Origin: a virus
Reading direction: 5' to 3' (one strand)
DNA: 34,666 nt
Virus record (IMG/VR): IMGVR_UViG_3300021440_000079
Location: 1-34,666 of that record
Numbering within the stretch: position 1 is the first letter of the stretch; each line of letters opens with the position of its first letter. Positions 209-24,231 of the stretch are shown here, one piece after another. The notes beneath the pieces are model-generated. The model ran no database searches, was not told where the DNA came from, and was given only the letters and a program-made list of their open reading frames with translations. The position numbers were made by a program, and so were the translations under genes.

Positions 209-470
209 GACGGTCCACAAGAAAATACCCCGGCCTCTATCTTACTGGTTGCGTCACAAGCGCCAGAAGTGCGAGTGTCTGGGGTATTGGTTTCCCCATC
301 GTAAGGGTGGGGGAGCTTGTGAACATTCCTCCAAAGCCGATTATTACCACGCCCTGAGACAGGGGCTTTCCCAGGCTGAAGCTATGCAGTTGCTGTCTGC
401 GTCCGACTTGGAAAAGCTCTTCCCGCTGCCCGATTCAACCCCGTCCGATGATTCGGACATCCCATTCTGA
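201..470 (+). CDS. Small Cys/His-rich phage protein, unknown function
   Basis: 89 residues from the ATG at 201, which overlaps the stop of the preceding gene by 8 bases. A longer reading from 132 is possible, but it would overlap that gene much further. The centre carries Cys-x-Cys, a Gly-Tyr-Trp-Phe-Pro-His-Arg segment and Cys-Glu-His, a spacing that could hold a zinc ion. The C-terminal part is Asp/Pro rich and ends in Asp-Ile-Pro-Phe. Pro-His-Arg motifs of this kind occur in small uncharacterised phage proteins, but I cannot name a function. The next gene follows at once, with its ribosome binding site over this stop codon. Confidence 0.6.
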   Translation: MSKTVHKKIPRPLSYWLRHKRQKCECLGYWFPHRKGGGACEHSSKADYYHALRQGLSQAEAMQLLSASDLEKLFPLPDSTPSDDSDIPF

Positions 471-477
471 GGACCAA

Positions 478-2253
478 ATGAAGAACGACATCGACGTTAC
501 CTTCGACACCAAGACGCGACGGCTGGTGTTCAAAGCCCCCTTTCACATGAGCGACGTTATTCGGGGGTTCCCGTCGCGTCGCTTCGATCCCAAGGGTAAA
601 GTCTGGAAGGTGCCGCTTGTTAAGGCGAACATCAGCCATCTTCGTGAAGTCTTTCATCTGTACCCGTTCAACGTGTCGACCGAAGCCCAGGCAGCTTGTG
701 CCGATCACGAAGCGCTGATGGCTGGCCCCAAGTACGTGCCTTTCCCCCGCCATATCTACGACTTCAAGAAGTCCCAGCTTAAATATGATCCGATGCAGCA
801 TCAAGACAAAATGCTCGATTTGTCGTATGGGCTGAAGGCGTCGGCGTGGTTCGCTAAGATGGGGACGGGCAAGACGTTTGCGGCGGTGCACCTTGCGATG
901 GCTCGTTGGGCTGCAGGACAAATTGACGCTGTAATGATCATTTGCCCGTCCGCTCTTCGCCGTACGTGGTTGAAGGAATTGGCCAAGTATGCCACGTATG
1001 ACTACGATTTCCGGATTCATGAAACAAAGGCCCCGTGGTTGAAGGAATTCTATGTGACACGAGCCCAATTTGGTAAAGACGCCCTTCCCATTCTTGCGGT
1101 GTCCGTCGAGGGTCTTGGCGTGTCCGAAGCACTTTACGATTCAGCCTGCGGGTTCCTTGTTTCACGCCGTGTCATGGTTGTATGTGATGAATCTTCACGA
1201 ATCAAAAATCCTGAGGCAAAGCGTACGAAGAGGACGATTGACATTGGTGCCGCAGCCGAATATCGAATGATTCTCAATGGCACACCCATCGCTCTCGGTA
1301 TTCAAGACTTGTGGAGTCAGTATGAATTCCTCGACCCGAACATCATCGGGTGCGGGGATTACTGGGCTTTCAAGACTCGGTATATCGTCATGGGCGGGTA
1401 TGAGAACAAGCAAATCGTCGGCGTGCAGAATGTCGATGAACTGATGAAGGCAATCATTCCGTACACCTGCGAAGTTGGTAAAGATGTCTTGAACTTACCG
1501 CCCAAAGTCGCGAAGCCGATCTATTGCGAAGCGAGCCCGGCACAAAAAATGCTATTCAAGCTGATTATTAAAGGGCCGACCGGCCATCCCGCCGAGCCGA
1601 TCATTAAAGTGGAGAACGTGCTCGAACGGAATCTCCGGCTTCAACAGGTGGTCGGTGGCTACTTGCCTCGTGGTGTGCCCTCGAAGAAAATGATCGATGG
1701 GATCGAATGCGAAGTGATCGAGACGGTGATTGAACCGCTGGCGGACAATCCCAAGCTGAACTTGCTACTTGACATGATCGAGGACAATTATGCCGGAACA
1801 AAGTTCATTATTTGGACCACCTTTGTCCACGAAATCGAGCACATCCGAGACACCCTCGCTAAAAAGTTCGGCCCTGAAACCGTCGAATGCTATTACGGAA
1901 AAACCGAAATGGACGACCGGAGCCGTATTGAAGATCGGTACTGTAACGATAGCAGTATGCGATTCTTCATTGGAAACCCTGTGGCCGCTGGTTTGGGACT
2001 CACTCTCATCAGCGGAGAGAATGACGCTATGGTCTATTACAGCGGGACCAACGCATACATCGACCGAGCCCAATCCGAAGATCGTGCTCACCGAATTGGC
2101 CAAAAGAACTCGGTGACCGTCATTGATTTGATCATGGAGCGGACAATCGATGAAGCAATCCAAGCCTCGATTGGCGAGAAGATGAATGTTGAGGAATATT
2201 TGATGACCAGAATTGCGCAGGGGTTGAGCATTTATGACCAAATGATGGGATGA
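478..2253 (+). CDS. SNF2-family DNA helicase/translocase with HARP-like N-terminus
   Basis: 591 residues from the ATG at 478, preceded by GAGGA; an upstream in-frame ATG at 448 lies inside the previous gene and is less likely. The two RecA-like lobes are clear: Walker A Met-Gly-Thr-Gly-Lys-Thr near residues 128-133, a DEAH-type motif read as Asp-Glu-Ser-Ser at 237-240, motif III Asn-Gly-Thr-Pro at 267-270, and the SNF2 signature Arg-Ala-His-Arg-Ile-Gly-Gln at 536-542. Before the ATPase, residues about 10-60 carry Arg-Arg-Phe-Asp-Pro-Lys-Gly-Lys-Val-Trp, resembling the HARP module of SMARCAL1-type annealing helicases. The likely role is remodelling or restarting replication forks of the phage DNA. 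The ATPase call is firm; the HARP assignment is inference from a short motif. Confidence 0.93.
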   Translation: MKNDIDVTFDTKTRRLVFKAPFHMSDVIRGFPSRRFDPKGKVWKVPLVKANISHLREVFHLYPFNVSTEAQAACADHEALMAGPKYVPFPRHIYDFKKSQLKYDPMQHQDKMLDLSYGLKASAWFAKMGTGKTFAAVHLAMARWAAGQIDAVMIICPSALRRTWLKELAKYATYDYDFRIHETKAPWLKEFYVTRAQFGKDALPILAVSVEGLGVSEALYDSACGFLVSRRVMVVCDESSRIKNPEAKRTKRTIDIGAAAEYRMILNGTPIALGIQDLWSQYEFLDPNIIGCGDYWAFKTRYIVMGGYENKQIVGVQNVDELMKAIIPYTCEVGKDVLNLPPKVAKPIYCEASPAQKMLFKLIIKGPTGHPAEPIIKVENVLERNLRLQQVVGGYLPRGVPSKKMIDGIECEVIETVIEPLADNPKLNLLLDMIEDNYAGTKFIIWTTFVHEIEHIRDTLAKKFGPETVECYYGKTEMDDRSRIEDRYCNDSSMRFFIGNPVAAGLGLTLISGENDAMVYYSGTNAYIDRAQSEDRAHRIGQKNSVTVIDLIMERTIDEAIQASIGEKMNVEEYLMTRIAQGLSIYDQMMG

Positions 2254-2254
2254 A

Positions 2255-2272
2255 AGTAGGACTAGCCCTACT
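2255..2272 (+). promoter_or_regulatory. Inverted repeat touching the -35 box of the next promoter
   Basis: AGTAGG (2255-2260) and CCTACT (2267-2272) form a 6-bp inverted repeat around a 6-base loop. It ends on the first base of the -35 hexamer of the promoter at 2272-2300, and AGTAGG recurs once more inside that promoter. No T-run follows, so a terminator for the helicase gene is unlikely; an operator or mRNA hairpin is more plausible. Confidence 0.4.
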
Positions 2273-2300
2273 GGACAGTAGGACTCCGCCGTGGTACACT
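2272..2300 (+). promoter_or_regulatory. Predicted sigma-70 promoter (TGGACA-17-TACACT)
   Basis: The -35 TGGACA (2272-2277) and -10 TACACT (2295-2300) are separated by exactly 17 bases in the gap after the helicase gene. It closely resembles the promoter at 34014-34042: both read GACAGTAG at the -35 side and TGGTACACT at the -10 side. Transcription would start near 2307, about 23 bases before the ATG at 2330. Confidence 0.6.
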
Positions 2301-2329
2301 CGGTACCTGATAGATACATAGGACATCAA

Positions 2330-2698
2330 ATGAACAACCCGATTGTTTGGATTGTTAAAGAGCAAATGATCCGTGGCGAGACGCAGCCAATCCCCATGGA
2401 TTACAGCCCGGCCATGGCCTTTGGCGACATCGAGTTCATTACACATCACGACATGCCTTTGTACGGCAAATCCTCTGTCCAAGAACATTGGAACCATGAT
2501 GTGCAAAGCTTCGTGAAGAAATACGATCCGGACCGTGATTACATTATCACGACCGGCCAACCGATGGCAATTCTTGCTGTTGGGTTTGCACTGGGACAAG
2601 AGGGCAAGTGCCCTCGGTTTCTGGTTTGGAGGCGCGAAGAGAATCGTTATCGCGTCGTGAATTTTGACTCTACACTCGCTTGCGAGTCGATCATTTAA
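2330..2698 (+). CDS. Hypothetical phage protein
   Basis: 122 residues from the ATG at 2330, with TAGGA seven to eight bases upstream. An alternative in-frame ATG at 2291 would lie inside the predicted promoter and is rejected. The protein is soluble and mixed alpha/beta. The C-terminal half contains a hydrophobic stretch (Pro-Met-Ala-Ile-Leu-Ala-Val-Gly-Phe-Ala-Leu-Gly) followed by a beta-rich Trp-Arg-Arg segment. No family recognised. It has its own predicted promoter and is followed 14 bases later by the next gene, so it probably heads a small early transcription unit of replication-associated proteins. Confidence 0.75.
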   Translation: MNNPIVWIVKEQMIRGETQPIPMDYSPAMAFGDIEFITHHDMPLYGKSSVQEHWNHDVQSFVKKYDPDRDYIITTGQPMAILAVGFALGQEGKCPRFLVWRREENRYRVVNFDSTLACESII

Positions 2699-2712
2699 AG
2701 GAATAGTAGCAA

Positions 2713-3303
2713 ATGAGCAACCTCACTCTTTCCCGTTACGAAGGTCTGTTGGCCAATCTCGACGCTGGCGCCTATGAACTTCGTGATGCCGAGTTCTTCG
2801 ATCTGGCTGAAACCCTCGAAGATGCTATCCTGTTTCTGCAAGTCATCCGGTCACTTGACATCTTGATTGACGACTCGGCCCCCGCCGAGAAGATGACGGG
2901 CGACATGGAAACCCTGCGTCAGCTTTGCGTCAAGATGAAGGAATTGCAGAACCAAGCACTGGTCCTTAAGGCCCAAGCTGCTGATGTCCGCATCCCGCTC
3001 GACGAATTGCGTCTGAAGAAAATCCCCGAACTGATGGAGAGCCTGGAGGTCAAGACCACGACCTTCACAGGCTTGGGGCGGGTTCAGCTTGCATCCGATC
3101 TCTACGCGTCAACACGCAAAGGCCAGAAAGAGGCTGCGATGCAATGGCTCCGTGATTGTGGTTATGAGGACATGATCAAAGAGACGTACAACGCGTCCAG
3201 CCTCAAGGCCCTGTTCCGCCGCCAGATCGTTGAAGGTGTTGACATCCCCGAGGAAATCTTCTCGGTTACGCCTTTCGTCCGTGCCTCTATCGTGAAAGCC
3301 TGA
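2713..3303 (+). CDS. Coiled-coil phage protein of the early replication region
   Basis: 196 residues, starting at the ATG at 2713. Residues about 60-110 are charged and heptad-like (predicted coiled coil), followed by a compact domain with Leu-Gly-Arg-Val-Gln-Leu, a Trp-Leu-Arg-Asp-Cys-Gly-Tyr helix and a C-terminal Pro-Phe-Val-Arg-Ala-Ser-Ile. Proteins of this shape, with a long helix and then a small alpha/beta domain, occur in phage replication or recombination blocks, usually without an assigned function. Its place just before a short gene, an N4 gp49/Sf6 gp66 homologue and a possible ssDNA-binding protein suggests a DNA metabolism role, which is inference only. Confidence 0.78.
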   Translation: MSNLTLSRYEGLLANLDAGAYELRDAEFFDLAETLEDAILFLQVIRSLDILIDDSAPAEKMTGDMETLRQLCVKMKELQNQALVLKAQAADVRIPLDELRLKKIPELMESLEVKTTTFTGLGRVQLASDLYASTRKGQKEAAMQWLRDCGYEDMIKETYNASSLKALFRRQIVEGVDIPEEIFSVTPFVRASIVKA

Positions 3304-4004: not shown

Positions 4005-4778
4005 ATGGCTACCAAGAAAGCAGCAACCGAAGTCGCAGTTCAACAGTCCGGCGCTCTGGCGTTCGCGAATGAAGTACCCGACTACATCAAGCAAGGCGGC
4101 AATCGTGGCTCGGAAGAAGTCAAGTCCACGGACATGGTTCTGCCGCGCCTGGAAATCGTCCAGGCTCTGAGCCCGATCAAAGAAGAGAACGAGGATGCCA
4201 AGGAGGGCTACCTGTTCAATTCCGTGACCCAAGAGGTCATCGGTGATTTGGCCTACTTCGTGCCCGTCTATTTCCGCCTGGAATACCTGATCTGGAAGGA
4301 TCAAGACCAGGGCGGTGGTTTCTTCGGCTCCTTCAATTCGAAGGAAGAGGCCGACGCCCGCCGCATGGAAGTGATCGAGGAGGGCGAGAATCCCGACTAC
4401 ATCGAAATCGTGGACACCCCTGTCCAATACGGCCTGCGTATCACCCCGGAAGGCGTGTGCGAGCAGATCGTGATTTCGATGGCCAAGACCAAGGCCAAGG
4501 TGTCCCGCAAGTGGAACGCGATGATCCAGATTGCTGGTGGTGATCGTTTCAGCCGTGTCTACAAGCTGACCACCTTCAAGGACGAGAACAAGAAGGGCCA
4601 GAAGTTCTTCAACTACGTCGTCCAGCCTGCCGGGTTCACCCCCGAGAAGGTCTACCGCGAAGCCGAGCGTCTGTACGAAGTTCTGAAGACGCAAGATTTC
4701 CGCGTTGCTCACGAGACGGTCACCGAAGTTGGTGAAGGTCGTGGCGAGACGGCGGGCGGGGATCGCGGCGAGATTTAA
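4005..4778 (+). CDS. Candidate single-stranded DNA-binding protein
   Basis: 257 residues from the ATG at 4005. The N-terminus is Lys/Ala rich, followed by Asp-Met-Val-Leu-Pro-Arg-Leu-Glu-Ile-Val-Gln-Ala and a beta-rich core with several Trp and Phe residues (Phe-Val-Pro-Val-Tyr-Phe-Arg, Ile-Trp-Lys-Asp). The C-terminal tail is rich in Gly, Glu and Asp, as in many SSB proteins. Proteins with this layout occur beside the DNA polymerase in lytic podophages and siphophages and are often annotated as ssDNA-binding; I infer the same here from architecture and position. It is the last gene before a strong terminator, so its transcript ends with it. Function is moderate confidence; the coding call is very secure. 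Confidence 0.82.
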   Translation: MATKKAATEVAVQQSGALAFANEVPDYIKQGGNRGSEEVKSTDMVLPRLEIVQALSPIKEENEDAKEGYLFNSVTQEVIGDLAYFVPVYFRLEYLIWKDQDQGGGFFGSFNSKEEADARRMEVIEEGENPDYIEIVDTPVQYGLRITPEGVCEQIVISMAKTKAKVSRKWNAMIQIAGGDRFSRVYKLTTFKDENKKGQKFFNYVVQPAGFTPEKVYREAERLYEVLKTQDFRVAHETVTEVGEGRGETAGGDRGEI

Positions 4779-4858: not shown

Positions 4859-4875
4859 ATAGGATATAGCCCTAT
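4859..4875 (+). promoter_or_regulatory. Possible hairpin over the dpoZ ribosome binding site
   Basis: ATAGG (4859-4863) can pair with CCTAT (4871-4875). One arm holds the AGG of the Shine-Dalgarno sequence and the other reaches the first two bases of the dpoZ start codon, so folding would hide the start. Five base pairs only; weak by itself. Confidence 0.3.
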
Positions 4876-6703
4876 GGATTTTCCCCGTATCGATAAAGGA
4901 ATCCCCCTTGGCCTTGACTACGAAACTTCCGGCCTCGATTACTGGTCCCCGGATTTCCGCGTCCACAACGTTGCTGTTGCCGTCCCGGGCCAATGCTGGG
5001 CATTCGATTTCCGCACTCACCCTGAGGCTGCCAAATGGCTCGCAAATTTGTTACCGGGGCGAGAGGTTGCAGCACATTTTGCGCAGTTTGAATATCAATG
5101 CACCCGTGTGCTGAAGATCGATCCGCGCTCGATTGACTGGTACTGCACAATGACTGCAGCCTGCCTCATTAACGAGCACGAACTGACTTATAAACTCGAC
5201 GCTGTTTGCGCGATGTTCGGTGTGGACTCTGCCAAGTCGGAGAATCTGCGTCGGATCATGGACGCGCTGGGCGTCGATACCCCAGCCGCCGCACTCGCCG
5301 CCATCGGGCGGGCTCCCACCGATCTGGTCGCTACCTATGTAGCGGGCGATGCTCGCGATGCGCTGGAAGTATACTATGCTCAAAAGGCTGAAATAGCCCG
5401 TCAGGACCTGGAGAAGGTGGTTCGACTTGAGCGTGATTTGATCCCTGTTCTTGCCGATATGTCTTGGCACGGCATCCGGGTTGATCTTGAGGCCGCCCAT
5501 GCCGCTATCCCTCAGCTTGACGAGCAAGAAATCAAGCTCCAAGCTGAAGTCAACGAAATCTCCGGAAGGAAGCTCAATGTCAATTCTCCAGTTCAGCTAC
5601 GAGAGTTTTTTAAGCCTGAGCCCATCAACAAGTACCAATGGCAACTCATTGACGGAACCCTCGTCGGCCCCACCAAAGGTGGTAAAGGTCCGTCGCTTGA
5701 CGCCAAGGCTATGCTTGAAATCAAGCACCCCCTCGCTGCGAAAGTATTGGCTCTTCGCAAGACCATCAAACTACGGGATACCTTCATCCGAGGTCATGTT
5801 ATTGGAAGTGCTGATGGGGAAGGTTACGTCCACACGACGTTCAATCAAACGCGCAACGACGCCGACGCAGGCACAGTTACGGGCCGTCTCTCGTCTACCG
5901 ATCCGGCACTCCAGCAAATCACGAAGCGTGACAAGCAAAACGCCTCGATTCTGAGGGCGATGTTTCTTCCGGACGCAGGGGATCAATGGCTATGCGCGGA
6001 CTATTCACAAGTGGACTTCAGGTGTGGTGCGCACTTACAGAACGACCCGAACGTGATTGCGGCATATTGGAACGATCCATCACTGGATTATCACCAAATT
6101 GTGTCCGACATGACCGGAATCCCACGCAATGCACCGTATGCGGGTGCGCCATATACGAAACAGATCAACCTCGGCCTGTCGTTTGGTGCAGGTACGGGAA
6201 AATTGGCCTTCATGATGAACATGCCGTACACGGTGAGGGAATCGCGGGGCAAGATGCAGTATGTGGCAGGTCAGGAAGCGATTGACATCTTCAACCTCTA
6301 TCACCGCAAACTACCTGCGGTGAAGGAATTCATGAAGAAGGCCGAAAATGTCGCAAAAGAGTCTCACTACGTTAAAACGGCTATTGGAAGACGACTACGC
6401 TTCCCACGAGGAGTTGGCGCACACAAGGCGGCAGGACTCCTCTATCAGGCTTACGCGGCTGATCTTCATAAGTTTGGCCTTGTTCTGGTCGATCGTGCTA
6501 TACGGGATAATCAGCTACCTGCGCGGTTGATGATGTCTTGTCACGACGAAATCGGGGTGTCCATGAAGGAAAACCCCGAAGTTAAGCAAATCATCCAATC
6601 AGCGTACACGAATTTCAACTCCGAGACGTCACCAATCCGCATGCGGGTTCCCATCACCGCAAGTGGAGATTTCGGGGTCAACTGGTGGGAAGCTAGTAAA
6701 TAG
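4874..6703 (+). CDS. dpoZ: Family A DNA polymerase with 3'-5' exonuclease, DpoZ type
   Basis: 609 residues, the length of a Klenow-like enzyme without the 5' nuclease. The exonuclease domain has Exo I Asp15-Tyr-Glu17 and Exo III Tyr155-Val-Ala-Gly-Asp159; Exo II is unusual (Phe-Ala-Gln-Phe-Glu near 69-73 instead of Asn-x-x-Phe-Asp). The polymerase domain has Thr-Gly-Arg-Leu-Ser-Ser (336-341), motif A Asp376-Tyr-Ser-Gln-Val-Asp-Phe-Arg, motif B Lys429-x3-Leu-Gly-x-x-Phe-Gly and motif C His-Asp-Glu (557-559). In motif B the usual Arg four residues before the Lys is Ala, and the usual Phe and Tyr are Leu and Phe. Phages with purZ often carry such a polymerase, which favours dZTP over dATP. The polymerase call is certain; the DpoZ label rests on purZ, mazZ and datZ downstream. 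Confidence 0.93.
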   Translation: MDFPRIDKGIPLGLDYETSGLDYWSPDFRVHNVAVAVPGQCWAFDFRTHPEAAKWLANLLPGREVAAHFAQFEYQCTRVLKIDPRSIDWYCTMTAACLINEHELTYKLDAVCAMFGVDSAKSENLRRIMDALGVDTPAAALAAIGRAPTDLVATYVAGDARDALEVYYAQKAEIARQDLEKVVRLERDLIPVLADMSWHGIRVDLEAAHAAIPQLDEQEIKLQAEVNEISGRKLNVNSPVQLREFFKPEPINKYQWQLIDGTLVGPTKGGKGPSLDAKAMLEIKHPLAAKVLALRKTIKLRDTFIRGHVIGSADGEGYVHTTFNQTRNDADAGTVTGRLSSTDPALQQITKRDKQNASILRAMFLPDAGDQWLCADYSQVDFRCGAHLQNDPNVIAAYWNDPSLDYHQIVSDMTGIPRNAPYAGAPYTKQINLGLSFGAGTGKLAFMMNMPYTVRESRGKMQYVAGQEAIDIFNLYHRKLPAVKEFMKKAENVAKESHYVKTAIGRRLRFPRGVGAHKAAGLLYQAYAADLHKFGLVLVDRAIRDNQLPARLMMSCHDEIGVSMKENPEVKQIIQSAYTNFNSETSPIRMRVPITASGDFGVNWWEASK

Positions 6704-6712
6704 GAGATAGCA

Positions 6713-6931
6713 ATGAGGCAGTCCAGTGGCGGGGAGCCCGTCGAAATCGCAGTCGTCGTGAAAAGAACGACCGAGAAAGCCATTCTCGTGAATCATGGCG
6801 TGCCTGAAGAGGTCTGGGTGCCGAAATCCCAAATCAGTGATTGGAGCGACGGCCCGGACGATGAACCGGGTTGCGGTACCACTTCTATCTTCATCCCCGA
6901 ATGGCTGGCTATTGAGAAAGGCATGGTATGA
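6713..6931 (+). CDS. Small conserved phage protein after the polymerase gene
   Basis: 72 residues from the ATG at 6713, preceded by TAGGAG at ideal spacing, nine bases after the dpoZ stop. The core reads Lys-Ala-Ile-Leu-Val-Asn-His-Gly-Val-Pro-Glu-Glu-Val-Trp-Val-Pro-Lys-Ser-Gln-Ile, a short beta-barrel-like pattern, and ends with Ile-Pro-Glu-Trp-Leu-Ala. Similar small proteins with Val-Trp-Val-Pro-Lys-Ser-Gln occur in many phages near replication genes without known function. The stop overlaps the next start (ATGA at 6928-6931). Confidence 0.8.
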   Translation: MRQSSGGEPVEIAVVVKRTTEKAILVNHGVPEEVWVPKSQISDWSDGPDDEPGCGTTSIFIPEWLAIEKGMV

Positions 6932-7224
6932 CTTTCCCGAAAGATGATGAGTCCGTAGCGAACTTGTTCGGCGAGAAATCGAATGATCTGGCCCAATCTT
7001 GCCAGTTGGTCATGGACCAACTGCTGAAGGCTATCGAAGTCCTGTGGGGCCACCGCTGTCATGCCGTGATTGTGGCCATTCCGATGACAAATGATATGCG
7101 CCCAGTCGGGATGCTTGCCATGGATTCCTTCGGTGGCAATCCTTTCGGGATTCTGGAAGTTGCTCAATATCTCGCCAATTCGACGCAGGAGAACATCCCC
7201 CGCGAGACTGAGAGTTTCCATTGA
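6928..7224 (+). CDS. Hypothetical protein of the Z-gene operon
   Basis: 98 residues. The ATG at 6928 overlaps the preceding stop by four bases, and its own stop overlaps the next start. The sequence is alpha/beta with a central hydrophobic strand (His-Ala-Val-Ile-Val-Ala-Ile-Pro-Met) and a helix rich in Leu and Gln before it. No known motif is visible. It lies two genes upstream of purZ in an unbroken chain of overlapping genes, so it is made together with the Z-genome enzymes. Whether it takes part in that pathway cannot be judged from sequence. Confidence 0.78.
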   Translation: MTFPKDDESVANLFGEKSNDLAQSCQLVMDQLLKAIEVLWGHRCHAVIVAIPMTNDMRPVGMLAMDSFGGNPFGILEVAQYLANSTQENIPRETESFH

Positions 7225-7493
7225 GCGTCATCGTCTACGGCCCCCAAGGCTGCGGTAAGACACTCCAGGCCGAGCGACTCCGCAAACATCTTAAGATGGA
7301 AGAGGTCTGCGATGGTGAAATGGACCCCTACCCCTTGACGATCAAACAGCAGGAAGAGTTCAAGGCCGGTAAGGTCTTGTTCTTGACCAATATCGCCCCC
7401 AAACAGAAGGATTACGACACTCGTTACGACGATTATGACACCCGGCGAGTTCTCTCCTTCGACCAAGCAATGAAACTTATGGAGAATAGATAA
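7221..7493 (+). CDS. 90-residue P-loop protein directly upstream of purZ
   Basis: The start is a TTG at 7221 that overlaps the previous stop (TTGA); no ATG lies before the P-loop in this frame. Residues 6-13 read Gly-Pro-Gln-Gly-Cys-Gly-Lys-Thr, an exact Walker A motif directly after a hydrophobic beta strand (Val-Ile-Val-Tyr). A second hydrophobic strand (Val-Leu-Phe-Leu-Thr-Asn) near residue 55 lacks the acidic residue of a clear Walker B. At 90 residues it is much shorter than nucleotide kinases (about 200), so it is either a minimal NTPase or a truncated one. Its stop overlaps the purZ start by one base (TAATG), giving strict coupling. A role in nucleotide handling is inference. Confidence 0.8.
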   Translation: MSVIVYGPQGCGKTLQAERLRKHLKMEEVCDGEMDPYPLTIKQQEEFKAGKVLFLTNIAPKQKDYDTRYDDYDTRRVLSFDQAMKLMENR

Positions 7494-8554
7494 TGGCACA
7501 CAAAATCGATCTGGTCATGGACTTCCAATATGGATCCACCGGCAAGGGGCTGATCGCGGGCTATCTCGCCAAACGGGGTGATTATGACACCGCCATCTGT
7601 GCTTTTGCAACGAATGCAGGGCACACGTACATCGATGGGCCGATTCACCTGATGACGCAACAATTGCCGACCTCGATCATGAGCAAGACGGTCCGGAATA
7701 TTCTTCTTGGTCCCGGTTCTGCAATCCATATCCCCACGTTCCTGGAAGAGGTCGCCCGTTATTCTCACCATCTGGTCGGGAAGCGAATTCTCATCCACCC
7801 CCAGGCCGCAATTGTGGAGGATTATCATGCCAATTATGAGAAAGCCGATGGCCGTACCAAGATGGGATCAACCGCCAAAGGTGTTGGTGAAGCGTACATC
7901 GAGCGCATTCGTCGTGACCCTGTCTTGGCAAACACAGCTGGTATGCGTGGTCGAGAGAACCATGAATTCGGCCAGTACGTCTGCTCCGAGCATGAATACC
8001 GGAACTGTATCGAACATGCCGAGAATGTGATCATTGAGGGCGCACAAGGCTTCAGTCTCTCGATGTACCATGGCCAGTACCCGTACACGACTTCACGGGA
8101 TGTCACGCCTTGGCAGATCGCAGCGGATTGTGGGCTCCCGTTCAAGTGGGCTCCGTACATCGGAATCATTGGCACTCTGAGAACCTACCCGATCCGGGTG
8201 AACAATCGTGATGGCTCCTCTGGCCCGCACTACCCCGATCAGAAGGAAATCGCCTGGGAAGATATTGGCCTGCGGCCTGAACTGACCACCGTGACGAAGC
8301 TGCCCCGGCGCATTTTCACCTTCAGTGAGCAGCAACTCGCAGAAGCCGTGTTCCATTGTGGTGCTTATTGGGCCTCGGCTCGGCTCTTCTTGAATTTCGC
8401 GAACTACATGACCGGCCCCGCGCTTTGGGCTCTGATCGAAATGATTGAGCGTCCGAAGGAGTTGGCCTGGAATCGTCCGAGGATCGAATGGATCGGGTTC
8501 GGTCCCGAAGACAAGGACGTTGTGACCCGTCACGAACTGATCAATAAGGCTTAA
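7493..8554 (+). CDS. purZ: PurZ, 2-amino-deoxyadenylosuccinate synthetase
   Basis: 353 residues, against about 430 for bacterial adenylosuccinate synthetase (PurA). The N-terminal loop reads Tyr-Gly14-Ser15-Thr-Gly-Lys18-Gly where PurA has Gly-Asp-Glu-Gly-Lys-Gly; Ser in place of the catalytic Asp is the published hallmark of PurZ. Asn41-Ala-Gly-His44-Thr matches the second catalytic loop, and Glu-Gly-Ala-Gln-Gly-Phe followed by Tyr-Pro-Tyr-Thr-Thr-Ser-Arg matches the nucleotide-binding loop. In this family the enzyme joins dGMP and aspartate to make succino-2-amino-dAMP, which host PurB converts to dZMP. It is coupled by a one-base overlap to the P-loop gene and followed two bases later by mazZ. 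A misread host-type PurA is unlikely because of the Ser, the short length and the neighbours. Confidence 0.95.
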   Translation: MAHKIDLVMDFQYGSTGKGLIAGYLAKRGDYDTAICAFATNAGHTYIDGPIHLMTQQLPTSIMSKTVRNILLGPGSAIHIPTFLEEVARYSHHLVGKRILIHPQAAIVEDYHANYEKADGRTKMGSTAKGVGEAYIERIRRDPVLANTAGMRGRENHEFGQYVCSEHEYRNCIEHAENVIIEGAQGFSLSMYHGQYPYTTSRDVTPWQIAADCGLPFKWAPYIGIIGTLRTYPIRVNNRDGSSGPHYPDQKEIAWEDIGLRPELTTVTKLPRRIFTFSEQQLAEAVFHCGAYWASARLFLNFANYMTGPALWALIEMIERPKELAWNRPRIEWIGFGPEDKDVVTRHELINKA

Positions 8555-8556
8555 AT

Positions 8557-8865
8557 ATGCTTGAGACAATTGACACCGTGGCCCTCGGAATCAAGGGCTG
8601 GGCCGACCGGGTTTTCCCGGATCGCACGGATGCTTCGATGTACCTGAAGCTTTATGGCGAAATCGCTGAAATGATCGACGCCGATGATGCTCACGTTGAA
8701 GGTGAAGTCGCCGACGTTCTGATCCTGATCCTGGACTTTGCGAAGCGGAAGGGGATCGATGTCGAAGCTGCGATCGCCCGGAAGATGAAGATCAATCAAG
8801 ACCGCTCATGGGTCCGTAATAAGCTGGGTGCTTTCAGCCATCGCAAGGAGAACAACCATGAATGA
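8557..8865 (+). CDS. mazZ: MazZ, MazG-like nucleotide pyrophosphohydrolase
   Basis: 102 residues from the ATG at 8557, two bases after the purZ stop. The all-alpha MazG metal site is intact: Glu35-x-x-Glu38 on one helix and Glu50-x-x-Asp53 on the next, followed by Lys76, Asn80, Arg83 and Trp85 in the usual places. MazZ of Z-genome phages cleaves GTP/dGTP to the monophosphate, supplying dGMP for PurZ. MazG-like proteins also occur alone in phages, so the specific name comes from its place between purZ and datZ. Its stop lies inside the datZ start region (8-base overlap). Confidence 0.9.
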   Translation: MLETIDTVALGIKGWADRVFPDRTDASMYLKLYGEIAEMIDADDAHVEGEVADVLILILDFAKRKGIDVEAAIARKMKINQDRSWVRNKLGAFSHRKENNHE

Positions 8866-9406
8866 ATTCTACGCCTACGGCAAGGATAATGTCGGACTTG
8901 AAGCCGTGATGCGTCTCCACGCCGTGAAGCGCTGGCATATGATCGATACCACCCGTCAGCAGACGTTGGCCGAGCATTCAGCAAATGTCGCTCTTCTGGC
9001 CTATTATATCGCAGTGACCTCACCGGAAATGTTCTTCGGTTCTGCCCGAGGCGTGTCCGCTTACGCACTAGTCCACGATCTGGCGGAGGTCTTCACTGGA
9101 GATATCCCCAGCCACAGTAAGCGGCATTTGACTGGCGTGGACGAACTTGAAGAGCGGGTGTTGCCCCGAATGTTCCGAATTGAACATACCCGCAACGCCC
9201 AACTGATGGTCAAGCTCTGTGATCTGGCCGATGGCATTCGATTTGTCCGGTTACATGGGGTAGACGTCACGGCACGGCACGCGAAAGAGGGCCTCGAAAA
9301 ACAGCTGGCTGATCGGAAGCAAGACGCTATCGGCATGGAATGGCCGGAGCATGTGCTTGACCATGTGTGGCAGGCCGTCAATTTCTACGCCTACGAACTT
9401 TCATGA
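8858..9406 (+). CDS. datZ: DatZ, HD-domain dATP triphosphohydrolase
   Basis: 182 residues from the ATG at 8858, with AAGGAG seven bases upstream; an earlier ATG at 8828 lies well inside mazZ and is rejected. The HD metal ligands are visible: His40 (Ala-Glu-His), His73-Asp74 (Val-His-Asp-Leu-Ala-Glu) and Asp122 (Leu-Cys-Asp-Leu-Ala-Asp). Thr-Gly-Asp-Ile-Pro at 80-84 is the usual YfbR-like extension. In Z-genome phages this enzyme strips the triphosphate from dATP, so that adenine is kept out of new DNA. Overlap with mazZ upstream and with the nuclease gene downstream (ATGA) places it in the same transcript. Confidence 0.93.
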   Translation: MNEFYAYGKDNVGLEAVMRLHAVKRWHMIDTTRQQTLAEHSANVALLAYYIAVTSPEMFFGSARGVSAYALVHDLAEVFTGDIPSHSKRHLTGVDELEERVLPRMFRIEHTRNAQLMVKLCDLADGIRFVRLHGVDVTARHAKEGLEKQLADRKQDAIGMEWPEHVLDHVWQAVNFYAYELS

Positions 9407-9837
9407 ACCAGCTTGAGCTTGAATTCCGGGGCGGGTTGATCAAGGATATGTCCGGGGTTTGGATTCCCACTATCCACGTGGAAAACCATCTGAATCCCGG
9501 CGTGCCCGATCTGTCGTACGTTATGAATGGTGGTGACTTCGAGACAGGGTGGCTCGAACTGAAAGCCATCAAAGATACCCCGCCGCCCTACACCTTCAAG
9601 CTTGAGCCTTCACAACATAGATGGATAGAAGCTCACCATCTTCGGGTGCCAGTTCACCTGCTACTTTCTACCGGGCGAGTCGTGTGGCTCGTGCCGGGCA
9701 AACATCATGGCATGTTCGCCAAGCCTGTCGGGCTTGGCGAACTTAGAATCAACTCTATTTGCGGGTTTCAGCGGGAGGCGCTTCGCCGCGTTCTGTACGA
9801 CAACCTGAAAGTAGTGACTGACCGGAGACGTTCTTAA
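9403..9837 (+). CDS. VRR-NUC-like nuclease (PD-(D/E)xK fold)
   Basis: 144 residues; the ATG at 9403 overlaps the datZ stop, and the TAA overlaps the primase start (TAATG at 9835-9839). The core is Asn-Pro-Gly-Val-Pro-Asp-Leu-Ser followed about 20 residues later by Gly-Trp-Leu-Glu-Leu-Lys-Ala, the Gly-x-Pro-Asp...Glu-x-Lys arrangement of VRR-NUC and related nucleases. A Gln-His-Arg-Trp helix and a final beta strand (Val-Val-Trp-Leu-Val-Pro) complete the small domain. Likely roles are resolving branched replication intermediates or degrading DNA; the presence between datZ and the primase favours replication. Substrate is not predictable. Confidence 0.82.
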   Translation: MNQLELEFRGGLIKDMSGVWIPTIHVENHLNPGVPDLSYVMNGGDFETGWLELKAIKDTPPPYTFKLEPSQHRWIEAHHLRVPVHLLLSTGRVVWLVPGKHHGMFAKPVGLGELRINSICGFQREALRRVLYDNLKVVTDRRRS

Positions 9838-12398
9838 TGGACTTCAAAGAATACAAAGATGTGAGGCCAGCGTTGTTGATCAAAGCGTGCCTCGACCTGA
9901 TTCACGAACCGGGTGAAGTTTTCGAGGTTCGTATCCCGAAGACCAAGGCGGGGACGATCAGCGGCTATTTCAATGACACCACCAAGGCTGCCGCTCTGAT
10001 CGCTCGGGAGAATGGCAAGTATCAGGCGATCTACGCGACGGTCAATCCTGTCAACCCGATGCTTTTGGCCCGGAACGAGAACAAGCTCGAATTCGGGTCG
10101 CAGACAACTTCAAACGACGCCGATATTATTCGTCGTCGCTGGTTTCTATTAGATTTCGACCCGGTTCGACCGGCCGGGATTTCGTCCACTGATGGGGAAT
10201 TGGCATTGTCGCTGGACACTGCTGATCAAGTCATTGAATGGTTATCGAGTATCGGTTGGCCAGAACCGTTGGTGGCCGAGTCAGGTAATGGCATTCATGT
10301 GATGTATCGGGTCGACGAACCCGCCGATGACGCTTCCCGCATCGACTTCGAGTACGCCTCGAAAATGTTGTCTTCGATCTTCTCGAATGACAAGGTGGCT
10401 GTCGATACGACAAGCTTCAATGCATCCCGTGTCTGGAAAATTTATGGCACTATCAGCGCGAAGGGTTCCTCTACGGCAGACCGTCCGCACCGGGTAGCCC
10501 AGCTGATCCGTTCGCCGCGAGAACTCGGGATCGTCAGCCGGGAACAGATCGAGAATGTCGCCCGCCCGTTGCGGGATGCTAAGACCGATGAATACCGGGA
10601 CATGTCTGGTGAATTCATCGGGGATATGACGAAGTGGCTGACTGATCGGGGTCTTACCGTCACTTCCGGGCCGCGCCCGATGTTCGGTAATGAAGGCCAG
10701 AAATGGACGATCACACGCTGCCCATTCAATCCGGAACACGTGAATCCGATGGTGGGACTGGTTAACAATCGGCCCGTCTTCCGTTGCCTGCATAATTCAT
10801 GTTCTGCTTTCCGCTGGAAAGAATTTCGCGAGAAGATCGATCCGAATTATAAAGACCCGGACACCGTTTATTCCCGGCTTAAAGCGTGGTGTGAAGGCAA
10901 CGACCCCGAGCTTGACGGTGATTTGGCCCAATCCGCCTGCGCACTCAAGAAGAAAGTCGAACCGCTGTTGAAGAGGCTACGCGAAGAATGCCCCCGGCCT
11001 CGCGTCAATCTGCTGGAAGACTTCCTGAAACAGGAACGTAAGCGCTTTATCCGCGATACCATCGGGGACAACAACGAGAAGGGCAACATCGTTGGGCTCA
11101 TCAACCGGACGCGGATGTATCAGCAGGAGGGCTCTGTGCCAATGTTCTGGATCGCCGACTATGACCACCGAATCCGGGTGGGGGATGTCGGAGACATCGA
11201 ATGTCCAAAGGTCACCGCAGAAGACGAGATCTCGTTGCTGATCAAGTTCCATAGTAACGGTGATTCATGGGTGAAGCAGTCTCACTGCACACAAGTCATC
11301 ATCCATCTGGCCTCGGAATATCGGGTCAATCCGTTGAAAGCCTTCTTGAAGCAGAAACGCTGGGATGGTACGAAACGCCTTGACAATTGGTTGCCCGAGT
11401 ACATGGGAACCAAAGACAATGAGTATACCCGTGCTATTGGTCGAAAGTGGCTTATTTCCGCAGTTGCCCGAGCCATGGATCCTGGCTGCCAAGCCGACCA
11501 CATGTTGATCTTTGAAGGCGCGCAAGGCATCGGCAAGTCTCAAGCATTGCGTATTCTTGGTGGCCAATTCTATGTTGAGTATTCCGGTTCTGTCCACGGA
11601 GGCGGAACCGGCCATAAAGACATGGTGGCCGCGATCACGGGCAAGATGATTGTTGAAATGTCGGAATTGGCCACGTTGCGCCGTGCCGACATGGAATCCC
11701 TGAAAGCCACACTAACCACGACTGTAGATGAAGCCCGACTGTCGTATGAGCGTGATTCGAAGGCGTACCCCCGTACTTGTGTATTCGGCGGTACGACCAA
11801 TGAAGTGGGCCAAGCATATATCGCCGACTTGACTGGTGCCCGCCGTTTCTGGCCGACGCACTGTGCCGAGGTTCATCCAGTCAAGCTGGAATTGCTCCGT
11901 CAAGATGTTGACCAGCTTTGGGCTGAAGCGATCGAATGCTACGAGAATGGTGAAGATTGGTGGTCAGTCCCCGATGAACTCGTGTCGGCTGAACAGACAG
12001 ACCGTCAAATCACCCTCGAAGACTCCGAGCCCTGGTTCGGGAAGGTCCGAGCTGCACTCACAGACCCGGATAGCTATTCTGGCCTGTTTTATGTAATCGA
12101 GGAATTCAAATCCGGGGACCCGACCGGGCAGGTCGCGATCCGGGCGGGGGAAATGCACTTGTTGCTGGGAGTGCTGCTCGGAATCGATACAGCGCGTCAA
12201 TCCGCCATTGATATCATGCGACTCCAGAAAGTGCTTCGCGGGATCGGCTTCAAGAAGAGCCGCCCCGCGAAGAAGTGGATGGGGAATACCTACGCCTACG
12301 ATCTACGTCGTGAAGCGCTCCCCCATTTGTGGTCGTCTATTGAAGCTGCAACCAAGGCGATTAAATTCCCGAAGCAGGAATCAGTTGACCGGGCCTGA
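9837..12398 (+). CDS. Fused archaeo-eukaryotic-type primase and VirE-like helicase
   Basis: 853 residues with two domains. The N-terminal primase-polymerase domain has Leu-Asp106-Phe-Asp108 (metal binding), Ser-Gly-Asn-Gly-Ile-His (149-154) and a third Asp190...Asn195...Arg198 motif, the order seen in AEP primases. A zinc knuckle follows (Cys295, His301, Cys317, Cys322). The C-terminal superfamily 3-like ATPase of the VirE family has Walker A Gly561-Ala-Gln-Gly-Ile-Gly-Lys-Ser568, Walker B Met-Ile-Val-Glu-Met-Ser-Glu (604-610), a sensor Asn at 655 and Gly-Ala-Arg-Arg-Phe-Trp near 667-672. It would prime and unwind phage DNA ahead of DpoZ. It ends the rightward block; its last 18 bases overlap the end of the holin gene on the other strand. 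Confidence 0.92.
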   Translation: MDFKEYKDVRPALLIKACLDLIHEPGEVFEVRIPKTKAGTISGYFNDTTKAAALIARENGKYQAIYATVNPVNPMLLARNENKLEFGSQTTSNDADIIRRRWFLLDFDPVRPAGISSTDGELALSLDTADQVIEWLSSIGWPEPLVAESGNGIHVMYRVDEPADDASRIDFEYASKMLSSIFSNDKVAVDTTSFNASRVWKIYGTISAKGSSTADRPHRVAQLIRSPRELGIVSREQIENVARPLRDAKTDEYRDMSGEFIGDMTKWLTDRGLTVTSGPRPMFGNEGQKWTITRCPFNPEHVNPMVGLVNNRPVFRCLHNSCSAFRWKEFREKIDPNYKDPDTVYSRLKAWCEGNDPELDGDLAQSACALKKKVEPLLKRLREECPRPRVNLLEDFLKQERKRFIRDTIGDNNEKGNIVGLINRTRMYQQEGSVPMFWIADYDHRIRVGDVGDIECPKVTAEDEISLLIKFHSNGDSWVKQSHCTQVIIHLASEYRVNPLKAFLKQKRWDGTKRLDNWLPEYMGTKDNEYTRAIGRKWLISAVARAMDPGCQADHMLIFEGAQGIGKSQALRILGGQFYVEYSGSVHGGGTGHKDMVAAITGKMIVEMSELATLRRADMESLKATLTTTVDEARLSYERDSKAYPRTCVFGGTTNEVGQAYIADLTGARRFWPTHCAEVHPVKLELLRQDVDQLWAEAIECYENGEDWWSVPDELVSAEQTDRQITLEDSEPWFGKVRAALTDPDSYSGLFYVIEEFKSGDPTGQVAIRAGEMHLLLGVLLGIDTARQSAIDIMRLQKVLRGIGFKKSRPAKKWMGNTYAYDLRREALPHLWSSIEAATKAIKFPKQESVDRA

Positions 12399-19400: not shown

Positions 19401-19859
19401 TTATTCTCCAATCCACTTGGAATAATATATCTCAACTCGCTCGAAATCTAAGAATTCGAACAGAGCACTCGCATCGGCTTTGACTTTGCTACCGACGAAC
19501 CAGCGCTGGACGCCGCGTCTTTTCAACTCTTTTTCAACCGCCCGGAACAGACGAACACCGGGAAGTCCTTGTGCCCGCTTATCTGGATGGATATAAAATA
19601 TATCCATCGTGCAAGTCAAGCAGTCCTTGTAATGCAGGCCGGGGGCGACAAATCCAATGAAATATCCTACCGGGGCACCCAGTTCACGCATCGTCATAAA
19701 CAACAACTCGCCTCGGGCTTCGCGAGCTTTATAGATGTCGTACTGAGGGTTCAACGGGACTTTGTCCTGATTCAACGCCAATTCCGCCCAATGAAGGGGG
19801 AACAGAGGACGGAATTCCTCTAGCCTCTCGGTGAAGGATTCGATTTGACAAGTCAGCAT
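19401..19859 (-). CDS. GNAT-family acetyltransferase, first of two
   Basis: 152 residues, start ATG at 19859, overlapping the hydroxylase-like gene by 7 bases. The acetyl-CoA site is visible: a beta strand Met-Asp-Ile-Phe-Tyr-Ile-His-Pro, then Arg95-Ala-Gln-Gly-Leu-Pro-Gly101 and a helix (Leu-Phe-Arg-Ala-Val-Glu-Lys-Glu-Leu). The C-terminus has the usual Phe-Leu-Asp-Phe-Glu-Arg-Val-Glu strand. It lies in the virion operon between the ejection protein genes and an oxygenase gene, which hints at modification of a virion or host surface protein; no substrate can be named. Confidence 0.88.
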   Translation of the reverse strand: MLTCQIESFTERLEEFRPLFPLHWAELALNQDKVPLNPQYDIYKAREARGELLFMTMRELGAPVGYFIGFVAPGLHYKDCLTCTMDIFYIHPDKRAQGLPGVRLFRAVEKELKRRGVQRWFVGSKVKADASALFEFLDFERVEIYYSKWIGE

Positions 19860-20437
19860 GGCTTGCTCGTCCGGATGTCAACGATCATATGAATCCGCTC
19901 CGTGTCACTGTTGTTAAGCACTTCATGCTCGACACGATTATCGAACCACCAGATGTCGCCAGTCCTCATGTGGACCCACTCTTCCCCTGCCCGAAAATTG
20001 GAACCAGGGGCCGACTGCAGCACGATATGAAAACGATCCCAGTATTCGGCATGAACGGGGGTATCGGCGTGAGGGAAGATTCGGCCTCCCGGATTCAACT
20101 TATTAATCATGACCCGGCCAAGGCGTTCGCCCTGGACCGCAGCCATCAGATTGAATACAAGAACCCGTGCTTCTGGCAGGTCCTTAAACACAGGCTGATC
20201 GTGATTCTCATGTTGATCAAAATTAGCAACATGATTTTTCAACGCTTCTTCGGTCGCGTGGACACTTCGGTCAGGGAATCGAAGAATGATCGATTCAGTA
20301 TCTCCAAAGGGGCCTTGGGGATAATCCCGGAGATACGTGTCCTCTTTCCAGATACTGTGCGATTTTTCAAGTCGATGAATGGCCAGCACCAGCGGGAGAA
20401 CAGACGCGTTTGTCGCAATTTGAAGGAAATTTTTCAT
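19853..20437 (-). CDS. Fe(II)/2-oxoglutarate aspartyl/asparaginyl hydroxylase-like protein
   Basis: 194 residues, start ATG at 20437 with GGAAG upstream. Pro-His123-Ala-Asp125 and His171, with Arg181 ten residues later, form the His-x-Asp...His metal site and the 2-oxoglutarate Arg of the double-stranded beta-helix oxygenases, and Trp-Trp-Phe-Asp-Asn before His171 is typical of the aspartyl/asparaginyl hydroxylase branch. Such proteins occur in the structural blocks of several phages, where they may hydroxylate a virion protein. Substrate unknown; the fold and metal site are well supported. Confidence 0.87.
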   Translation of the reverse strand: MKNFLQIATNASVLPLVLAIHRLEKSHSIWKEDTYLRDYPQGPFGDTESIILRFPDRSVHATEEALKNHVANFDQHENHDQPVFKDLPEARVLVFNLMAAVQGERLGRVMINKLNPGGRIFPHADTPVHAEYWDRFHIVLQSAPGSNFRAGEEWVHMRTGDIWWFDNRVEHEVLNNSDTERIHMIVDIRTSKPC

Positions 20438-21211: not shown

Positions 21212-21562
21212 TTAGATCATTGTACCTTGTTTGATAGAATCGACCTCTTTAGTCAACTCCGCGATAGAATCACGCTGGGCAGCCACTTCTGCCGCCAATC
21301 TTTCAACCGCTTCGATCAGGATTTGCACGGGCTGTTGCTGAAGAGCTTGTTCCACTGAGAACAACGCCGCATTTGTTTCACTCGTACCAGCATCTTCGAA
21401 CAGACTGGCTTCGACCCCCGGGATTCCGGAACCGATAGCCCCGCCCACACGCTCATACACCTGCTGGAAAAATAGTAGCCAGGGGCGCGTAAAGGTCTCA
21501 AAGCCTCTGTCATCCGTTTGGGTCGCGGGCTGACGTTCAGCGGGAAATTTAATTGCGCTCAT
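21212..21562 (-). CDS. Small virion-operon protein with C-terminal coiled coil
   Basis: 116 residues; the ATG at 21562 overlaps the stop of the stabilisation protein gene by four bases. The N-terminus carries Arg-Pro-Trp-Leu-Leu-Phe-Phe-Gln-Gln-Val-Tyr-Glu-Arg, a motif seen in small podophage structural proteins, and residues about 70-112 are heptad-like (Leu-Ala-Ala-Glu-Val-Ala-Ala-Gln). It occupies the position where P22 has its tail needle gp26, but length and sequence give no real support for that identity. Confidence 0.72.
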   Translation of the reverse strand: MSAIKFPAERQPATQTDDRGFETFTRPWLLFFQQVYERVGGAIGSGIPGVEASLFEDAGTSETNAALFSVEQALQQQPVQILIEAVERLAAEVAAQRDSIAELTKEVDSIKQGTMI

Positions 21563-22986
21563 GAATTCCCCACAGTAACATCGATGTTGGCATCAATCAA
21601 AACCCGTTTTACCGGGTCAGTGATCGTGACCCGAAACACTCTGGACCTCGACTTTCCGAGCCTGCGGAAATTGACACGAGCCAATCTTTCACCCAACCTT
21701 CCAAGGCTAGCTCGAATTTCATTACTCCATGTATTACCGCCATCGTTGCTCCAATCGAGCATGACTTCGGGGGCCGATCCTGATCCACTGACATTACCAA
21801 CCCCTACTTCCATATCGATCCAAAGTTTATGGAAGAACACCCACACATTACCGTTCGCGATGTAGGGGGTCTGACGAATTGCAGGAATTAGGTCACCATT
21901 ATCTGTGTACGTGTCCAGGTCAAGAACATACACATTGCCGTTTTCCCAATCACCCACCAGATTTTCGCCCGCAAATGCCATTTGGCAGTTGGAACGATGC
22001 CGATTGAGTGACGCCGACACCGGGTTACGCCAAGCACGTTCATGCCATTCATCCGTAGACACGTCATAAACCCAGGTCGCATTCGCGGTTGGAAAATTCA
22101 ATACATAGAAACTATGACCTTCTTGCTGGTAGGCATATCCTATAGCATCGCTAATGGTGGTATACTGGTTGATCGCATATTCTACAGCGTGAGTGCTCAC
22201 ACGCTGTGGTTGATACCCCTGTGCTCGTTGCACCATTCCTTGCCCACGTTCGTCTGCCGTGAGCCAAAACACTGTATTGTCTAGCTTGGCAGGGCTGAAT
22301 TTCGCAGCACAGCCCTGTTCGATAAACGCGCCTTGAATTCGCTCGAAAGGAAAATCCGGGTTTCCACTGTTGAAGAAAACTTCTGTGCTAGTTTCCCCGA
22401 ACAACCAAATCTCTCTGTGGTCAACCAACAGGGACAAAAGAAGATCGGGAGCCCCTTCGGCCGTTGCGAAATCTAAGCTATCGATGTCAGTGCCGTAAAT
22501 CTGGGTGATTTGAAACTGACCTGTGCCGGTTTTATTAAATGCAAAATACCCATCAATAAACGCAACCGTATCAGCGCCTGTGAAATCTGAATCTGTGATT
22601 TGAGCCAATACACTAGTTGCCGGGGTGAAATAGTACCCGTTCGGCCCGGTGACAATCATGATAACTGTGCCATTACTGGCCATGCTCACCGGGGTGGTAA
22701 AGTCATCGACCAGCCCCACCAGTGTGGATACACCAGCGGCAGTAACTGTATACAGTTTGCTGCCGGAAACAACCAAAGCAAGATTCGCATTGAATCGAAT
22801 CATTCCCCGAATATTTCCCCCGACGAAATTCTTCCAAAGTCGTAGTCCAGGTGTACCGTATAACGCTGCTACATTTTTGCTTGTCCCAGACTTACTAAGT
22901 TCTGGATATAGATTCACCGTGCGCTGCGCGTCAAAGAACTTCGACCGAGTGCGATAACTGCCGCCAATGAATCCTGGGAATTTCAT
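21559..22986 (-). CDS. P22 gp10-like packaged-DNA stabilisation (tail hub) protein
   Basis: 475 residues from the ATG at 22986; a reading from 23007 would overlap the upstream gene. The N-terminus Lys-Phe-Pro-Gly-Phe-Ile-Gly-Gly-Ser-Tyr and Arg-Thr-Val-Asn-Leu-Tyr-Pro-Glu are the start motifs of the family. The remainder is beta-rich, propeller-like, with Tyr-Gly-Thr-Pro-Gly-Leu, Asn-Pro-Asp-Phe-Pro-Phe-Glu-Arg-Ile and a C-terminal strand-rich domain with Trp-Ser-Asn-Asp-Gly-Gly. In P22 gp10 attaches to gp4 and seals the packaged head. Order relative to the gp4-like gene upstream agrees. Confidence 0.9.
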   Translation of the reverse strand: MKFPGFIGGSYRTRSKFFDAQRTVNLYPELSKSGTSKNVAALYGTPGLRLWKNFVGGNIRGMIRFNANLALVVSGSKLYTVTAAGVSTLVGLVDDFTTPVSMASNGTVIMIVTGPNGYYFTPATSVLAQITDSDFTGADTVAFIDGYFAFNKTGTGQFQITQIYGTDIDSLDFATAEGAPDLLLSLLVDHREIWLFGETSTEVFFNSGNPDFPFERIQGAFIEQGCAAKFSPAKLDNTVFWLTADERGQGMVQRAQGYQPQRVSTHAVEYAINQYTTISDAIGYAYQQEGHSFYVLNFPTANATWVYDVSTDEWHERAWRNPVSASLNRHRSNCQMAFAGENLVGDWENGNVYVLDLDTYTDNGDLIPAIRQTPYIANGNVWVFFHKLWIDMEVGVGNVSGSGSAPEVMLDWSNDGGNTWSNEIRASLGRLGERLARVNFRRLGKSRSRVFRVTITDPVKRVLIDANIDVTVGNS

Positions 22987-22988
22987 GA

Positions 22989-23693
22989 TTAATACCCTCG
23001 CTGCCAAATAGCCGGGCCATCATCAGTCAACACACTATCAAACGTCATGACCGGGGGAGTCATATTCGCGTTCTTGATGTTGCCCTTGCTGTCCCGCGCA
23101 ATGGTGGCTACATCGACTGCAGGAACCATGCCATATTCAGCAGCTAGATGAACCGCTAGGGAGTAACGCAATGCTTTCGCATATCCCGGAGGATAGACCA
23201 GTGAAGTGGCGAGATTCGGAATTTGTGTCAGGATACGACCACACGACAGAGTTATCGGAATCACATTCGAAGGCACAGGCCAGAGTGTCAAAAACCCAAG
23301 CGGATTCTCGTTCACATACAGCATTTGCTCGATGATGGGCTGTTGCTGTGATTTCAGAGCGATTCGGTTGTAGGCCAACTGATCGACTACTTCGATCTGG
23401 AAGTCGACCCCGCCGAAAGTGCAGTAACCGCCGAACACATTCACAGGCCGGTCGGTATTGAAATTGCCCCCCGGCCCCACTGTATACAGCTTCTGGCCAG
23501 GGACGGTATTGAAAGTCTGGTTGGAGGAACCCCAAACTGCAAGCCCCTCCAGCGACCACCCCTCAAGTACATCGTTCAAAGTGTTCAGGGCGTCGTTTGC
23601 TTCGTCAGCAGTCGGAGTCTCACCAGTCGCAATCGCGCCGATGAGCCGCATGGCCCCCTTAATTAGGTCCAGCGCAGTGGTCGGGCTTGGCAT
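22989..23693 (-). CDS. P22 gp4-like head-completion (neck) protein
   Basis: 234 residues, start ATG at 23693 with AAGGAG upstream. The family pattern is clear: an N-terminal helix (Asp-Leu-Ile-Lys-Gly-Ala-Met-Arg-Leu-Ile-Gly), Ala-Leu-Asn-Thr-Leu-Asn-Asp-Val-Leu-Glu-Gly-Trp and Tyr-Thr-Val-Gly-Pro-Gly-Gly-Asn-Phe. P22 gp4 binds the portal and links it to the gp10 hub; it also has reported muramidase activity in P22, which I cannot confirm here. It ends two bases before the gp10-like start. Confidence 0.88.
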   Translation of the reverse strand: MPSPTTALDLIKGAMRLIGAIATGETPTADEANDALNTLNDVLEGWSLEGLAVWGSSNQTFNTVPGQKLYTVGPGGNFNTDRPVNVFGGYCTFGGVDFQIEVVDQLAYNRIALKSQQQPIIEQMLYVNENPLGFLTLWPVPSNVIPITLSCGRILTQIPNLATSLVYPPGYAKALRYSLAVHLAAEYGMVPAVDVATIARDSKGNIKNANMTPPVMTFDSVLTDDGPAIWQRGY

Positions 23694-23716
23694 AGTGAGA
23701 CTCCTTATACTTCAGA

Positions 23717-24225: not shown

Positions 24226-24231
24226 ACCTGA

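Follow-up and report, generated by a model that had tools for sequence, protein, structure and literature searches.

The window, that is, the whole 34,666-base stretch analysed here (a single IMG/VR contig of an uncultivated phage), very likely represents a phage genome built with 2-aminoadenine (Z) in place of adenine. Its sequence, residues, gene order and phylogeny support its placement among the PurZ-type Z-genome phages. As an earlier note on this DNA had claimed, the complete known phage gene set for Z-DNA is present: dpoZ, purZ, mazZ and datZ are intact, and each matches a family model or a solved structure. We hold with high confidence that this PurZ-type Z-cluster, together with DpoZ, replaces adenine by 2-aminoadenine in what is probably a virulent P22-like podophage. 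The pathway is already known, and the new elements are the virion context and an unusual DpoZ subclade. The rarity implied by the note was overstated, since Z-clusters are common in environmental viruses (about 500 IMG/VR loci with PurZ relatives) and the Z podophages phiVC8 and ZP6 have already been isolated. Counted against the main reading are a PurZ score barely over the cut-off, a divergent DatZ with Met22, and an altered exonuclease site in DpoZ.

We infer each step of catalysis, as well as the occurrence of Z in the phage DNA, from characterised homologues (PMC8342488, PMC8065100, PMC8599892, PMC12884076). MazZ would convert dGTP to dGMP, and PurZ would form N6-succino-2-amino-dAMP from dGMP and aspartate with the use of ATP or dATP. 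dZMP would be released by host PurB and converted to dZTP by host guanylate kinase and NDP kinase. The record encodes no member of the PurB-family lyase, guanylate kinase or NDK families, so that, as already proposed, the host must supply these steps, as in known cases. Meanwhile, DatZ would destroy dATP and DpoZ would prefer dZTP, which would lead to 2-aminoadenine in place of adenine in the phage DNA. Many host restriction enzymes with A-containing sites would be ineffective on such DNA.

The residues of the four enzymes were compared with reference positions in S-2L PurZ and MazZ (PMC8342488), S-2L DatZ (PMC8065100) and phiVC8 DpoZ (PMC8599892), and the alignments show that almost every residue published for catalysis or specificity is retained. 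The purZ gene (7493-8554, plus strand) encodes a 2-aminoadenylosuccinate synthetase of 353 aa, which scores 303.7 bits against NCBIfam NF038379, just above the cut-off of 300, and has 6fko as its best solved structure (2.8e-75). The Ser-for-Asp loop reported earlier was recovered as G-S-T-G-K-G at S-2L S23, a column in which E. coli PurA carries Asp; the Ser stands for PurA Asp13. Among the 29 published S-2L active-site positions (PMC8342488), 27 are identical, and the two substitutions are C204 to T and Q308 to N, the latter shared with phiVC8. In the tree, the window PurZ falls within the PurZ lineage (branch support 99/96), apart from PurZ0 and PurA, in an uncultivated clade of its own with 13 rows (support 100/100). 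A search of a plasmid collection for a close PurZ found none, the best match being 33%, and none of the seven MAG contigs matched in the PurZ search is close to the clade of the window. Two MAG loci, L083:5977-7011 and L084:5968-7008, carry a Ser-type PurZ-like adenylosuccinate synthetase that is chromosomal and not of phage. Their source MAGs, of 1.6 and 1.8 Mb and titled Alphaproteobacteria and Proteobacteria, are related and share gene context; the neighbours in L084 are cytidylate kinase, a Ham1-like protein, an S1 protein and peptidase S49. The PurZ-like gene is the sole PF00709 protein found in each of these MAGs, which may be incomplete.

The mazZ gene (8557-8865, plus strand, 102 aa) encodes a MazG-like (d)GTP pyrophosphohydrolase with 7ody as its best solved structure (4.6e-16) and a family match to PF04447. 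The MazG metal residues named in the note are present: MazZ keeps E35, E38, E50, D53, I56, D60 and R83, and the metal residue position E34 is known to vary in MazZ-1. Since the metal residues conserved in MazZ-1, the guanine-specificity residues and R83 are all kept, the protein is by sequence of the S-2L-like MazZ-1 subfamily and not of the phiVC8-like MazZ-2. The datZ gene (8858-9406, plus strand, with ATG at 8858, 182 aa) encodes an HD-domain dATP triphosphohydrolase, for which 6zpa is the best solved structure (4.8e-14) and phrog_7076 the family match (2.5e-20). Its HD ligands were seen again in the residue alignment, where the metal ligands H34, H66, D67, E70 and D119 and the phosphate contacts R19, K81 and K116 are retained. 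In the dATP pocket, W20 is kept and I22 is replaced by Met, which also occurs in ZP6 and Bm1; identity to the DatZ of known Z-phages is 23-32%.

The gene order described from the sequence was likewise borne out by the ORF coordinates, with a gap of 2 bases between purZ and mazZ, an overlap of 8 bases between mazZ and datZ, and the end of dpoZ 789 bases 5' of purZ, matching the claim of a DpoZ-type polymerase 0.8 kb upstream. As in the window, where mazZ lies between purZ and datZ on one strand, the order is purZ-mazZ-datZ in all eight PurZ-type isolates examined (phiVC8, S-2L, SH-Ab, PMBT28, BUCT555, ZP6, OH and Bm1); one extra small ORF separates mazZ and datZ in phage OH. A profile scan of IMG/VR gave 541 pattern matches and 497 confirmed PurZ relatives, the best 80 of which were taken further. 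Both mazZ and datZ were found in 86 of 95 testable environmental PurZ loci, i.e., those whose sequence extends far enough to the right of purZ, and all 86 show the order purZ-mazZ-datZ on one strand. DpoZ was found in 68 of 77 testable environmental loci.

The dpoZ gene (4874-6703, plus strand, 609 aa) encodes a phiVC8-like family A DNA polymerase with a 3'-5' exonuclease domain, which scores 813.8 bits against NCBIfam NF038380 (cut-off 500) and has 7pbk as its best solved structure (4e-95). The alignment shows that R440, L455, F459, G548, the helix-O insertion (insertion 2) and the HD pair are kept, and on sequence the polymerase is of the phiVC8/SH-Ab-like type. The polymerase and exonuclease motifs claimed for it were found only in part: the DpoZ signature residues, exo I (D26 and E28) and exo III (Tyr and Asp, read from the alignment) are in place, but exo II is non-canonical, with F-A-x-F-E for N-A-x-F-D (Asp85 to Glu, Asn81 to Phe). 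The canonical exonuclease set of D26, E28 and D85 with helix-E2 R161 (Arg or Lys) is incomplete, as Glu replaces D85 and R161 is not conserved. D85 and R161 are features of proofreading and not of Z-selectivity (PMC8599892), and therefore the altered residues leave the membership among phiVC8-like DpoZ intact. DpoZ rows from environmental loci, the window, phiVC8 and SH-Ab were compared, and the window belongs to an uncultivated clade (tree support 100/99). The 23 rows of this clade, that of the window among them, are 58-71% identical to the window, and 18 of them have Glu85; relatives L004 and L011, also of this clade, have Asp85. Outside this clade, no DpoZ row has Glu85; one further Glu belongs to L082, whose polymerase is only 22% identical. 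Glu85 thus marks, as far as sequence goes, one uncultivated DpoZ clade. At position 161, rows outside the clade have Arg or Lys, and in one case Gln, while those inside vary among Arg, Ala, Ser, His, Thr, Asp and Glu; R161 is conserved neither in the window nor in most of its clade.

These changes bear on the possibility that dZTP is made but A is replaced only partly, e.g., because DpoZ proofreads weakly or host dATP is kept high. The altered exo II, the loss of R161, the replacement of I22 by Met in DatZ and the fact that phiVC8 DpoZ also takes dATP at high concentration (PMC8599892) would all fit partial replacement. However, DatZ keeps all its dATP-removing residues, and exonuclease-site and R161A/M165A mutants of phiVC8 DpoZ have lower exonuclease activity with no fall in the Z-over-A ratio, which is unchanged in the exonuclease-dead mutant and raised in R161A/M165A (PMC8599892). 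Lost or weaker proofreading would therefore not break the pathway, and we regard partial replacement as improbable. The clade offers a natural series of DpoZ with altered proofreading residues, which bears on how DpoZ distinguishes Z from A.

The four Z genes lie in a conserved replication module on the plus strand, which starts with a SNF2-type helicase and Pam3 gp32- and gp33-like genes (448-3303, family matches); a defence-gene scan of the window gave only generic SNF2-helicase similarity at 448-2253. A Pam3_gp34-like protein linked to DpoZ in Z-phages follows (4005-4778; PF23977, 4.2e-61) and is conserved across the clade. When it was modelled as a possible SSB, the model was weak (mean pLDDT 67) and the best fold matches were insignificant, with a few SSBs among them. 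Among the records listed, identities of about 36% or more to this protein are confined to Z-phages, and those in other phages, e.g., the Pseudomonas M6 and Bordetella CN2 groups, are about 30%. Three small ORFs of 72, 98 and 90 aa lie between dpoZ and purZ (6713-7493, plus strand), and the third contains a P-loop. Among relatives, the 72-aa ORF was found only in L010, the P-loop ORF only in L004 (37%) and the 98-aa ORF nowhere; the P-loop ORF was considered as a dZMP kinase and rejected because it is too short and matched in just one relative. After datZ come a small PD-(D/E)XK-like nuclease candidate (9403-9837, plus strand), which has a PD...ELK motif, a position conserved in relatives and no Pfam match, and a primase/helicase with a VapE-like domain (9837-12398, plus strand; PF05272, 1.4e-67; phrog_256), which ends the replication block.

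More than ten contigs have this module of helicase, three Pam3-like genes, dpoZ, purZ, mazZ, datZ, nuclease candidate and primase/helicase in common. P22-like virion relatives lack purZ, as might be expected if the genes were a decaying or recently captured metabolic cassette, serving nucleotide recycling or host takeover, in a phage with ordinary DNA. Against such a cassette, the frames are open and the active sites conserved, dpoZ, purZ, mazZ, datZ and gp34 are conserved at 44-82% across more than ten contigs, and a dedicated DpoZ is part of the module throughout the clade of the window. This explanation is thus highly improbable, and a functional Z pathway remains the preferred one. In two contigs, this Z module is combined with another portal and terminase. 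One replication/Z module is shown travelling between unrelated virions.

The P22-type virion proposed earlier is confirmed at the level of its genes: a major coat protein (24675-25886, minus strand; PF11651, 1.6e-34; 78% identity to the coat of Rhodoferax phage P26218), portal, gp4- and gp10-like proteins and ejection proteins were found. The P22-like virion block (21559-31230, minus strand) comprises gp10-like head closure, gp4-like adaptor, coat, putative scaffold, portal and TerL, although the TerL itself is not P22-like. A protein with a K1-lyase C-terminal domain (31376-32266) adjoins the terminase genes and was matched in none of the relatives compared. GNAT acetyltransferase and aspartyl/asparaginyl beta-hydroxylase-like genes (19401-20437) lie in the virion block and occur elsewhere only in G003 and G011 among the contigs compared. 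By the coat model, 16 of 56 IMG/VR PurZ records scanned have a P22-type coat, window included, and none of ten PurZ-type isolates has one; the coat is present in the PurZ0 phage Galactica. The nearest virions (P26218, ctfPj964) and the nearest Z modules sit in different genomes, as would also be seen if a Z-phage replication block had been joined to an unrelated P22-like virion block during assembly. However, P22 coat with PurZ recurs in independent contigs, with seven further records besides the window in one scan and eight in another (one of the eight weak), and the relatives G003 and G011 carry the GNAT and AspH genes together with a coat 68-70% identical to that of the window, so that a chimera is hardly credible. 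The virus group, with a P22-type shell and a polymerase whose proofreading site is altered, is without a cultivated member. No P22-like Z-phage turned up in the papers searched, and the window extends the Z-genome trait to this P22-type virion group.

Vibrio phage phiVC8 (Enhodamvirus) and Alteromonas phage ZP6 (Mareflavirus) are, like the window, podophages with dpoZ-purZ-mazZ-datZ on one strand and virion genes on the opposite strand; identities to the window are 36-41% for PurZ and 35-36% for DpoZ. In contrast to the window, they lack a P22-type coat, have MazZ-2 instead of MazZ-1, and carry the primase between dpoZ and purZ instead of after datZ. Cyanophage S-2L shares the purZ-mazZ(MazZ-1)-datZ triad (PurZ 41%, MazZ 44%, DatZ 31%), but it is a siphovirus that replicates with PrimPol and without DpoZ. 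Acinetobacter phage SH-Ab 15497 and Salmonella phage PMBT28 also combine DpoZ with purZ-mazZ-datZ and are among the closest isolate DpoZ relatives (37-38%); however, they are long-tailed, have a UvrD/PcrA-like helicase upstream, and their MazZ carries an additional, fused domain at the N-terminus (DUF5664 in SH-Ab).

The virion block closest to that of the window belongs to Rhodoferax phage P26218 and Podoviridae sp. ctfPj964 (MW202557), with coat at 78% and gp10 at 64-67% identity. From the Rhodoferax virion relative alone, a betaproteobacterial host might be guessed. Unlike the window, these two phages have no PurZ, and their nucleotide-metabolism slot holds a thymidylate-synthase-family gene and a YfbR-like HD hydrolase, to which ctfPj964 adds a 5-hmdU-kinase-like gene. 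We infer from this that the DNA of P26218 may contain modified pyrimidines; a thymidylate-synthase family gene was sought in nine Z contigs and found in none. A combined proposal, which we put forward only tentatively and think rather doubtful as a whole, is that the clade DpoZ would have a proofreading site that is weakened or altered (Glu85, loss of the helix-E2 Arg) and would select Z over A, discrimination against A resting on the polymerase site and dATP removal, and that the P22-like lineage would swap entire base-substitution modules in one genomic slot, the Z-purine module being exchanged for a putative modified-pyrimidine cassette or the reverse.

Over the first 25 kb, DNA comparison with isolated phages gave only one near match, of about 600 bases in the coat region at 76% identity. 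An integrase family search for a prophage state gave no matches, and searches of the contig for tRNAs and RNA families found none. No direct repeats were found in the contig beyond a 9-base tandem repeat at its end (34602-34664); it is possibly incomplete.

Among palindromic hexamers, those containing A or T are typical restriction targets. The O/E of palindromic hexamers was compared by Mann-Whitney between 16 Z-phages and 10 phages with P22 coat and without PurZ, groups in which the genomes are related and not independent and the hosts and lifestyles differ. A/T-containing hexamer palindromes are less avoided in Z-phages (mean O/E 0.84 vs 0.68 in controls, P = 2e-4; 0.83 in the window), while GC-only palindromes show no difference (P = 0.41). 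This signal is a weak, suggestive independent sign of a Z genome. In addition, GATC is nearly absent from phiVC8 and PMBT28 (O/E 0.02 and 0.01, respectively), and ZP6 shows depletion as well (0.23), whereas SH-Ab, S-2L and the clade of the window show none (0.73-1.10); these differences perhaps reflect hosts with Dam/MutH.
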